Positions 43,967 to 47,384 of a stretch of DNA of 64,000 bases are shown piece after piece. The translations under genes and the position numbers were made by a program. Below the pieces are notes generated by a model, which did no database searches, was not told the origin of the DNA, and saw only the letters and a list, made by a program, of their open reading frames with translations. Source of the DNA: Sapientia aquatica (lineage in GTDB: Bacteria > Pseudomonadota > Gammaproteobacteria > Burkholderiales > Burkholderiaceae_D); assembly GCF_004358105.1 (NCBI RefSeq), contig NZ_SMYL01000002.1:1-64000 (forward strand), in the 5' to 3' direction. Within the stretch, counting starts at the first letter, position 1. Every line of letters begins with the position of its first letter.

Positions 43967-44167
43967 ATGAAAAAAATTATCGCTTTAGTTGCAACTCTGT
44001 GTTTTGCATCGACTTTTGCACTGGGTAGTGCATTTGCACAAGCTCCAGCAACTTCAACCGGCGCGCATCACGCGCATCATGCTAAACATAGCAAACATGC
44101 TAAGCACACTAAAGCCAGTCACAAGAAGTCCGGCCACAAGAAATCGGCTAAAAAACACCACGCTTAA
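43967..44167 (+). CDS. Small exported His/Lys-rich protein
   Basis: This 66-residue protein has a signal peptide (residues 1-25, ending SAFAQ) and a mature part made almost entirely of His, Lys, Ala, Ser and Thr: HHAHHAKHSKHAKHTKASHK and then KKSGHKKSAKKHHA. About a third of the mature residues are His, so binding of copper, nickel or zinc is plausible, or of polyanions. The ATG has AAGGAATTACC in front. The bufferin-type cluster is near on the other strand. No family is assigned. Confidence 0.8.
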   Translation: MKKIIALVATLCFASTFALGSAFAQAPATSTGAHHAHHAKHSKHAKHTKASHKKSGHKKSAKKHHA

Positions 44168-44272: not shown

Positions 44273-44509
44273 TTAGCTCGATTTTGCAAGCACTTTAATG
44301 CGTACATTACCAAGACTAACCATTTGATTGGCGCGAATTTTGGCGGTTTTGCGCAATTCTTGTTGACCATCGACCTTCACATTGCCCTGCGCCACCAGCA
44401 TTTTCCCCGCGCCGCCGCTATCGACTATGCCCATGACTTTGAGCAAATTATTGATCTCGATATAGTCTTCGGTCAGTTCAAACTGCAGTTGTTGGATCGC
44501 GTTCTTCAT
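44273..44509 (-). CDS. Small S4-domain RNA-binding protein (YbcJ-like)
   Basis: The 78-residue protein is a single S4 RNA-binding domain, most similar in outline to E. coli YbcJ: FELTEDYIEINNLLKVMGI, VDSGGAGKMLVAQGNVKVDG and RKTAKIRANQMVSLG. It probably binds ribosomal or other structured RNA. The gene stands between the buf cluster and the bidirectional terminator and may be cotranscribed with DoxX (59 bases away). Confidence 0.88.
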   Translation of the reverse strand: MKNAIQQLQFELTEDYIEINNLLKVMGIVDSGGAGKMLVAQGNVKVDGQQELRKTAKIRANQMVSLGNVRIKVLAKSS

Positions 44510-44568: not shown

Positions 44569-45042
44569 TTATGCCGTCGTTTTAGGCGCAAGTTTGCCCA
44601 ACAAAGCGTCCACCGAAAAGCGTCCAGCACCAAATACAACGACCACCAATAGCAAAATCGTCCAATAAAAATGATCATTGATCGCAGCGGGACATTCGAA
44701 TTCAAATAACTGCGGATACGAGATCACCGCCATCGCATTCACGCCTAATAATCCAAGGGCAGCAGGGCGCGAGAATAGGCCAACGAACAATAAGCACGGC
44801 AAAAACAGCTCACCACCTGCCCCCATGTAGGCCGCCAAATCCGGCGGCAAAAGCGGAACGTGGTATTCGGTGTGGAATAATTCCAAGGTGCCGGGCCAGT
44901 TTTGCAGCTTAATCAAGCCGGAATGCAAAAACTGCCAGCCGACATAAACGCGCAAGACGAGTAACAATAAAGCGCCGCCCCAAGCACTGATAGCTTCATC
45001 AAAGCGCGTGCTGAATTGATGCAGTGTTAATAAATTTTTCAT
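44569..45042 (-). CDS. DoxX-family membrane protein of the buf cluster
   Basis: The 157-residue protein has four predicted membrane spans, with VYVGWQFLHSGLIKLQNWPG as the DoxX-typical start and YMGAGGELFLPCLLFVGLFSR in the middle. Proteins of this family often lie in bufferin-type operons with DUF2282, DUF692 and DUF2063 genes. Its start overlaps the end of bufC by four bases, so it belongs to the same operon. The function is unknown; a role in redox or metal handling at the membrane is inferred. Confidence 0.85.
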   Translation of the reverse strand: MKNLLTLHQFSTRFDEAISAWGGALLLLVLRVYVGWQFLHSGLIKLQNWPGTLELFHTEYHVPLLPPDLAAYMGAGGELFLPCLLFVGLFSRPAALGLLGVNAMAVISYPQLFEFECPAAINDHFYWTILLLVVVVFGAGRFSVDALLGKLAPKTTA

Positions 45043-45842
45043 GAGATTACCGTTAAGTGAGGAAGCGCTAAGTTGCTAAAAATTTGTTTGGTAAACCAAT
45101 CAGCTAACGCTGTTTGCACATCAAATTCAGGATCAAGTTCCATTGCCGCTTCCAACGCATGACCAAGATTTTTGCCGGACGCCAAGCTGCTCAATGCCGC
45201 GTAATTAGCGCGAGTTAATTCGCTAACTTGCACATGCCAGTTGGTTTGCCAATCAGCTCGCCAAACTAAACAAGCGCTTGGCTTGGATAATTCATGGGGC
45301 AGCGTGACTGGGCTGTCTTGATGTGCGTGCCAAATATCCGCAACGGCCCAATCCGACGTTAGCAGGGAGCAACAAGGTTGCAGCGTAATGCGCACATCGG
45401 CTAATCGTTCGGGCGGAAAGTTCACCAAATCCGCCAAGGTTGCAGGCGCTCGATGCTGCAAGTAATGCGCTTGATGCACCAGCCATTCGAGCCGCGCCAC
45501 GTCGCCCAAATACGGATAAGGTCGGCAACTGTCCAGCTCTTCAATAAAGCGTGGTAATTGCTGGCCGAACTCGGCTAAATTACCGCTTTGGGAAGGATGT
45601 TTTTCACCAAAAACGCGCGCTACATTATCGAAGAAATCGTCCCCAAGCAATTGCCGCAAAACGGGAAAAGCATTGCTCAAGGTTTGCTGCCACAAGCTGA
45701 TGATGCTGCCGCGGTATTGGGCGAAACGCTCGATGTTGAGTGCCGGATCGCCCTTAAACATCGCCAAAGCAGGTTGCACCATCTCGACATTGACCAACGC
45801 GGCGGCAAAATCGTGTTGCAGCAAACTCAAATCAGCGCGCAT
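45039..45842 (-). CDS. bufC: DUF2063 protein, partner of the MNIO enzyme (BufC-like)
   Basis: DUF2063 proteins deliver the precursor peptide to the DUF692 enzyme and are partner proteins in MNIO (multinuclear non-haem iron oxidase) systems. I chose ATG at 45842, giving 267 residues with the family start [12 protein letters not shown] and [22 protein letters not shown], which contains the N-terminal domain core. The gene start overlaps the end of the DUF692 gene by 16 bases. Symbol by analogy with the Caulobacter buf operon. Confidence 0.85.
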
Positions 45843-46699
45843 GATTGCTCCTTCAAAACCTGTTCGGTACGCTGTTTCGCTTGGTTCGCTTCGTCGAGCA
45901 AGACATCCAATTCGGGAATGTCGGTATCCCATTCAATCAAGGTCGGAATGTGCGCGCCAAACAGCCGACGCGCTTCCTTGTACAAGGCCCAAACCGCTGG
46001 ATCAACCCGACAGCCGTGCGTGTCCACCAAACCTGTATCGGTCACCAAATGTCCCGCCAAATGCAGCTCACCAATGCAGCCTGGCGGCAATTGCTGCAAC
46101 ATCGCCAACGCTTGCTGCGCCGATTCGGCGTGGTTGGCTTGATTGACATACAGATTGTTAATGTCCAACAAAATCCCGCAGCCGGTGCGTTTGACCAACT
46201 GCGATAAAAATTCGGTTTCGCTCATTTCATCGCATGCAAAGCGCACATAGCTAGAAACATTTTCCAGCATGACGCGCTGCTGCAAGGTGTTTTGCAGATG
46301 ATCGACGCGCTCGCTGATTAAAGTCAGTGCGGTCTTTATTAAAGGCAGCGGTAATAAATCATTTAAGTGCCGCCCAGCGACGGAAGCCCAGCACAAGTGT
46401 TCAGAAATTAACGCGGGTTGAATTCGTTCCGCCAGCGCTTTGATCTTTGCCACGTGTTCTAACGAGTAGCCGTGCGCCGAACCAATTCCCAAGCCAACTC
46501 CGTGCATGCTGATGGGGTAATCAGCGCGCAAATTGTCCAGCACATCCAAGTCAACTCCAACGCCAAAGTAATTTTCTGAATGAACTTCCAGCCAGTCGAT
46601 ACTGGGGCGTTGTCGCAAAAAATCCCGATAATGCTGGGTCCGTAATCCGACGCCATAACCTAGCGCCGGAAACGTCAATTTGTCGTTGGAGTGACTCAC
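45827..46699 (-). CDS. bufB: DUF692 multinuclear non-haem iron-dependent oxidase (BufB-like)
   Basis: MNIO enzymes modify cysteines in RiPP precursors, for example to thiooxazoles or oxazolone/thioamide groups that bind copper. The 290-residue TIM-barrel protein has [10 protein letters not shown] with metal-binding His/Glu/Asn, [39 protein letters not shown] and GELHLAGH, all DUF692 positions for the iron ligands. It follows the DUF2282 gene by 28 bases. Its product is predicted to modify that small protein. Confidence 0.92.
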
Positions 46700-46727
46700 G
46701 ATGTTGTTCTCTCAATACGGGTATTGA

Positions 46728-47000
46728 TTACTTCGCTGCTGGTTTGGCTTCGTCCAATTTGCCGCCCATGGAAGCGCAAGTACCGGCTGGAACATTTTTC
46801 CAATCAGCTGGGCTCATGTCTTTTTTGGATTGACCTGCGCAAGCATGGCCGCCAGTTTTGCTAGCGCAATCGTTTTGACCAGCTTTGGCAACGCCATAGC
46901 ATTTTTCCATTTTTGCACCAGCAGTGTCAGCTGCGGCGGCGATACCAGAACTCATCAAACCTGCTAATGCGACGGCGATCAAGGCGTTATTCTTAGTCAT
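46728..47000 (-). CDS. bufA: DUF2282 small Cys-containing protein, putative bufferin precursor (BufA-like)
   Basis: The 90-residue protein has a signal peptide (about residues 1-24) and a mature part with four cysteines: Cys34 ([15 protein letters not shown]), Cys45, Cys54 (GGHACAGQS) and Cys75 (GTCASMGG). This matches DUF2282/BufA1, whose modified cysteines in characterised bufferins bind copper in the periplasm. It is the first gene of the operon; TGGAGAAT lies before the ATG. Actual modification and copper binding are inferred from relatives. Confidence 0.88.
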
Positions 47001-47384
47001 ACTATTCTCCAGAAATTGATTAATGAAAGTAAATCGAATTGACCCTAACTAACCTCAGTGAATGGCTGAATGCTAAATCAAGGTACTGAGTGATAGTCGG
47101 AGTTATTCTATGTTTCCTTACAGCGAAATCTATTTTTTTTTAATTTTTCTTAAAAAAGATTTCGAGAACTGCAAACAGTGTGACTTTTTGGCGATTTAAA
47201 TATCTTTTTAAGTTGAAAAAATAACTATTAATATCGCGTCAATAACGTAGTCAATTGGCGAGTTGTCTACTATTAAACAGGGGCTCAAGCGAGAATGCCA
47301 TCGCGCTCAACAGATTTGATCATGCGTTTGGCCCTGATCTGCTATCCTCTGGCTTCGTTGATTTCCTGATCTCTTTTATTTGCT
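47001..47384. other. Divergent intergenic region between bufA and def
   Basis: The 384 bases contain no convincing gene. They hold a candidate ECF-type promoter for the buf operon at 47096-47122 and a T/A-rich block around 47130-47160. No consensus def promoter could be fixed. Confidence 0.5.
47096..47122 (-). promoter_or_regulatory. Candidate ECF-sigma promoter for the buf operon
   Basis: On the minus strand TGTAAGG (47122-47116), 16 bases, CGAC (47099-47096) occurs about 95 bases before bufA. Related buf operons are controlled by ECF sigma factors at promoters of the form GTAAxx-N16-CGAx. No ECF sigma gene lies in the window. Confidence 0.42.

Follow-up and report, generated by a model that had tools for sequence, protein, structure and literature searches.

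The closest described relatives of the locus studied here are the bufferin-1 (Buf1) cluster CC3254-CC3257 of Caulobacter vibrioides, the gigPABT operon of Cupriavidus metallidurans, and the Legionella GIG operon. In published Buf1 precursors, modification falls on the central cysteines, with a disulfide joining the outer two, and a survey of these systems reported sigma-factor genes for Buf1 clusters and none for Buf2 clusters (PMC12452194). ECF control in Caulobacter involves sigmaF, NrsF, and a GTAACC-N16-CGAA promoter (PMC3511200). The gig-type operons are inducible by copper and gold, and in C. metallidurans rpoQ, together with an anti-sigma gene, lies divergent from gig (PMC10304878).

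Two further systems, Neisseria sigmaE/MseR and Haemophilus influenzae RpoE2/HrsE, resemble the one proposed here in pairing an ECF sigma factor with a small ZAS anti-sigma. Meningococcal sigmaE is held by the ZAS protein MseR and has the promoter consensus -35 GTMAGBWTT and -10 CGTCTAAH with a spacer of 12-13 bp; its operon contains a DoxX-like gene and three genes whose function was then unknown, and the sigma factor controls MsrA/MsrB (PMC2893595). Neisseria NGO1945 is a DUF2063 MNIO partner (PMC12452194). The Neisseria and Haemophilus clusters encode EGKCG-type precursors (gonophorin, oxazolin; PMC13097082), whereas here the proposed targets are a Buf1 and a Buf2 operon, far from the sigma gene.

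The buf operon and its surroundings

We analysed a 64,000-nucleotide stretch of Sapientia aquatica DNA (the window), in which a sequence-only reading had placed DUF2282, DUF692, DUF2063, and DoxX genes in one tight operon at 44569-47000. All four genes were present there, on the minus strand, with Pfam scores well above the cut-offs. The bufferin-1 precursor gene bufA (46728..47000; 90 aa; DUF2282, PF10048, 85.4 bits against a cut-off of 22.4, E=2.6e-24) is preceded by a ribosome binding site, GGAGAA (47005..47010, minus strand), that is kept in relatives. It is followed by bufB, encoding the MNIO maturase (45827..46699; 290 aa, GTG start; PF05114, MbnB_TglH_ChrH, formerly DUF692, 314.9 against 25, E=5e-94), bufC, encoding an MNIO partner with DUF2063 and RRE-type domains (45039..45842; 267 aa; PF09836, 73.2 against 27.2), and bufD/gigT, encoding a DoxX-family membrane protein within the cluster, as expected of bufferin-1 (44569..45042; 157 aa; PF07681, 64.9 against 23.6, E=1.1e-17). 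The spacing is indeed tight, with 28 bp separating bufA from bufB and overlaps of 16 bp (bufB/bufC) and 4 bp (bufC/bufD). Because bufA adjoins bufB in 79 of 80 fetched relatives, with bufC next in nearly all of them, this arrangement is not due to chance. The closest BufB relatives (77-82%) come from uncultured Oxalobacteraceae and Solimicrobium silvestre; the organism itself belongs to the Oxalobacteraceae, close to Solimicrobium.

The four cysteines previously counted in the precursor (Cys34, Cys45, Cys54, and Cys75) are invariant among 22 aligned BufA sequences. A Sec signal peptide was predicted at residues 1-24 (46929..47000, minus strand) by inspection of the A-x-A motifs, with exact cleavage uncertain between residues 22 and 24; the mature part therefore has the proposed 66 residues if cut after A24, with A22 and A23 equally plausible. 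BufA thus combines the DUF2282 family, four conserved cysteines, and a Sec signal peptide (this last by inspection only), as expected of a bufferin-1 precursor. Its sole NCBIfam match, to the BufA2 precursor model, scored 25.6 bits, under the cut-off of 60, and as a DUF2282 protein BufA was therefore assigned to Buf1 rather than Buf2. BufB exceeded the cut-off of the NCBIfam MNIO_BufB model (NF050167; 339 against 310 bits), as expected of a bufferin maturase. BufA, BufC, and BufD were under, or without, NCBIfam equivalog cut-offs, with the HvfC model matching BufC below its cut-off and the HvfX model scoring 52.4 on BufD against a cut-off of 80.

The four Pfam assignments, the MNIO_BufB score, the invariant BufB residues and BufA cysteines, and the BufC model described below all support the bufferin-type reading. 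On sequence grounds, the locus is a canonical bufferin-1 (Buf1/gigPABT) cluster and a member of a family already known from other bacteria, so the cluster itself is ordinary. It shares with Caulobacter the four families, their order, the DUF2282 precursor, and, as argued below, probable ECF control, and its gene content and order are those of the gig operons; a peptide deformylase gene lies divergently next to it, in contrast to rpoQ in C. metallidurans. The operon very probably serves to produce and chemically modify a small exported protein that would buffer excess copper. We put the probability of the complete explanation, comprising a bufferin-1 operon, maturation by BufBC, copper chelation, and a TIGR02943-family sigma factor driving both bufferin operons of the genome, at about 0.82.

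Two small genes lie beyond bufD. An S4-domain RNA-binding protein (YbcJ-like) is encoded on the minus strand at 44273-44509, 59 bp downstream of bufD; most Oxalobacteraceae relatives have an S4 gene no more than ~3 kb from the buf operon, in one of three arrangements (upstream of bufA, or downstream of the operon in either co-directional or convergent orientation). On the plus strand beside the operon, 43967-44167 encodes a 66-aa, probably exported, His/Lys-rich protein (HHAHHAKHSKHAKH) with no family match in Pfam or NCBIfam. It is kept in the four closest relatives and could bind metal.

A predicted promoter upstream of two bufferin operons

The genome contains two MNIO genes, bufB and one in a bufferin-2 operon (C22:524881-526816). 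This second operon, like that in the window, combines an MNIO with a DUF2063 protein and an exported Cys-rich precursor, and the two have a common promoter; it differs in its CKG-type precursor, which passes the BufA2 model (94.5 bits against a cut-off of 60), and in having no recognised DoxX gene. Directly after bufC2, where DoxX might be expected, is a gene for a 95-aa probable membrane protein (L001 386-673; C22:524584-524871) without an NCBIfam match. Neither the promoter nor the second operon featured in the sequence-only reading, whose range ended before the promoter.

The predicted ECF sigma promoter (47094..47122, minus strand) consists of a -35 element TGTAAGGA (47122-47115), a 15-bp spacer, and a -10 element CGACTA (47099-47094). 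This block lies ~100 bp upstream of bufA and, in an alignment of the window with four relatives, stands out as conserved within an otherwise unconserved upstream region. The pattern TGTAAGGA-N14..17-CGACTA has exactly two matches in the 4.43-Mb genome, compared to ~0.13 expected by simple chance, and these lie upstream of bufA and bufA2, with spacers of N14/15, so that both precede MNIO operons. A relaxed pattern, GTAAGG-N15/16-CGAC, gave 6 genome matches versus 28 for a reversed control and is therefore uninformative outside the two buf operons. In spacing, the bufA promoter fits the meningococcal sigmaE consensus, and its sequence comes close, with CGACTA in place of CGTCTA.

Our first hypothesis, Caulobacter-type sigmaF/NrsF control, was rejected for this genome because NrsF is absent (no PF06532 match in the genome; the Caulobacter control was positive) and the promoter match is poor. 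The best sigmaF-type match (GTAACC-N16-CGAA) upstream of bufA has 4 mismatches, in contrast to the GTAAGG-N15/16-CGACTA pattern found here.

Genes preceded by the strict motif in family relatives are bufA1, bufA2, MsrP, MsrA, MsrB, CutA-DsbD, and ArsS genes. The motif gave 21 matches in the family compared to 7 for the reversed-pattern control, so some matches arise by chance, and single ones without a telling neighbour are not to be trusted. At class level, motif and reversed control gave 13 matches each, which leaves what lies downstream as the only informative feature; outside the family, the genes found there encode DUF2282 and EGKCG precursors, DoxX, and ArsS-like proteins.

These neighbours bear on a second reading, in which the biochemistry is the same, the main role lies in another stress, such as gold, chromate, cadmium, or oxidant/methionine damage to the envelope, and copper is of secondary importance. 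The presence of the same promoter before MsrP, MsrA, MsrB, and DsbD genes in relatives favours it, as do the responses of gig operons to both gold and copper (PMC5413113, PMC10304878) and of Caulobacter sigmaF to chromate and cadmium (PMC3511200). Against it, characterised bufferins improve growth under copper stress (PMC12452194) and the cation-tolerance gene CutA likewise carries the motif, and we regard a mainly non-copper role as rather doubtful.

The candidate sigma factor

Of the four ECF sigma genes in the genome, a single one belongs to TIGR02943 (247 bits against a cut-off of 162). It is located at C44:53465-54004, divergent from argB, and is followed by a gene for a 71-aa anti-sigma with the ZAS pattern C-x25-H-x3-C-x2-C, an adjoining pair of the sigmaE/MseR type.

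Among 60 family genomes, a TIGR02943 sigma over the cut-off was found in 31 and bufferin maturases in 34. The promoter, allowing at most 1 mismatch, was present upstream of 17/26 buf operons in sigma-bearing genomes versus 1/18 in the others (Fisher p=1e-4; 44 operons, with G010 counted as sigma-bearing despite a sigma match in two pieces). Per genome, the counts were 13/20 versus 1/14 (p=1e-3); both p-values are optimistic, since the genomes are related and not independent. Nine of the 26 operons in sigma-bearing genomes are without a close promoter match, and in G038 a promoter match was present with no sigma gene detected. An independently fetched set had the promoter in 37 of 78 relatives; the majority of these 37 are Oxalobacteraceae and none is a Paraburkholderia. 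In four family operons (G013, G016, G026, and G059), a sigmaF-like GTAACC-N16-CGAATT takes its place, which suggests that the family is divided between two ECF systems.

Three loci outside the family (L200, L203, and L207) have a related sigma gene next to the motif, with an MNIO-type precursor downstream in L203 and L207. In L207, the motif is situated between the precursor and a sigma gene whose protein, at 155 bits, narrowly misses the TIGR02943 cut-off of 162. Two adjoining DUF2282-type precursors (CYGINKAHMNDC and CYGINKAHQNDC) are encoded downstream of the strict ECF promoter in that locus, with the TIGR02943-like sigma and a ZAS-like gene on the promoter's other side.

Motif, co-occurrence, and neighbourhood together point to probable in-trans control of both bufferins by one sigma factor. 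Transcription of bufA would start from the ECF promoter, read by the TIGR02943-family sigma encoded elsewhere, and the same sigma would also drive the bufferin-2 operon in response to a presumed inducing signal. The promoter could instead be read by one of the other ECF sigmas, encoded at C11:504729 (RpoE/RseA type), C56:129172 (with a large anti-sigma), or C11:394002, as there are four such genes in the genome and the proposed sigma gene does not adjoin the buf operon. We consider this unlikely, since the motif fits the meningococcal sigmaE/MseR consensus, tracks the TIGR02943 sigma across genomes, and adjoins a TIGR02943-like sigma in L207.

Control by the TIGR02943 sigma is the only part of this explanation that a specialist might not expect. 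Although the published survey reported sigma genes in Buf1 clusters and none in Buf2 clusters, both operons here have one common promoter, which resembles that of Neisseria sigmaE/MseR. If this is correct, one stress sigma ties copper-buffering peptides to methionine sulfoxide repair, and promoter searches can find bufferin regulons even without a regulator gene nearby. The cluster itself extends a large known family by one organism, and the useful part is its regulation.

The genome also encodes a third DUF2282 protein from an orphan gene (L086 1390-1695; G000:C44:226556), in which NAC replaces NDC at the second Cys motif; it has no adjoining MNIO and no strict promoter match. A possible role for this protein is as a substrate modified in trans. 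We lean slightly towards a composite picture in which the far-encoded TIGR02943/ZAS ECF sigma coordinates the Buf1 and Buf2 operons, which make up nearly all of its strict-promoter regulon in this genome, bufferin operons of Oxalobacteraceae are divided between this sigma and a sigmaF-like promoter, and the orphan may serve as such an in-trans substrate.

Proposed maturation by BufB and BufC

BufB aligns with the solved MNIO PDB 3bww across the metal-site motifs (E=3.1e-31), and residues invariant in 79 sequences include H66, H101, E146, D179, H213, D226, H228, E256, and D258. For FonB, Asp249 has been proposed as the catalytic base, with the adjoining residue tuning substrate choice (PMC13097082). 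By analogy, we take D258 and T259 to be the presumptive equivalents in BufB. The residue after the proposed catalytic Asp is Thr in BufB and Asp (D-D) in the genome's Buf2 maturase, as expected of a DUF2282 enzyme and a Cys-Lys enzyme, respectively (PMC13097082).

Sequence and profile searches with BufC found no solved structures, including TglI and NGO1945. In Foldseek searches, the AlphaFold2 model of BufC (pLDDT 94.7) matched the known MNIO partners TglI (8hci, 8hi7) and NGO1945 (3dee), with the 8hi7 and 3dee matches spanning most of the length, and, much more weakly, 5v1v, an RRE protein bound to a leader peptide. The PF09836 match and the fold match to 8hi7 and 3dee thus point to the DUF2063 partner with a fused RRE-type domain expected of bufferin-1, and the model supports a role for BufC as the substrate-presenting partner. 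For BufA, the predicted structure (pLDDT 53) was too poor for use, and no solved structures were found by sequence search with its profile.

Based on the published Buf1 chemistry, thiooxazoles are predicted at Cys45 and Cys54. In the proposed pathway, BufA would be synthesised with its Sec signal peptide, and in the cytoplasm BufB, a multi-iron oxidase, would oxidise these two cysteines to thiooxazoles while BufC presents the precursor. Modified BufA would then be exported, with formation of a Cys34-Cys75 disulfide, and the mature protein would chelate excess periplasmic copper, with BufD as a putative inner-membrane accessory. The older gig model, proposed from annotation (PMC10304878) and favoured by the relation of DoxX to a quinol oxidase subunit, has GigP/GigT (BufA/BufD) oxidising periplasmic Cu(I) into the quinone pool and GigA/GigB acting on DNA, and is very improbable given that the GigA and GigB families are now known as RiPP maturation partners (PMC12452194, PMC13097082) and that the BufC fold resembles TglI.

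Elsewhere, L189 and L187 (G005 and G048) encode an MNIO over the bufferin cut-off, preceded by an ORF that is atypical of a bufferin precursor and ends in PPAPTDLRLALPPST, possibly reflecting a different substrate or arrangement.
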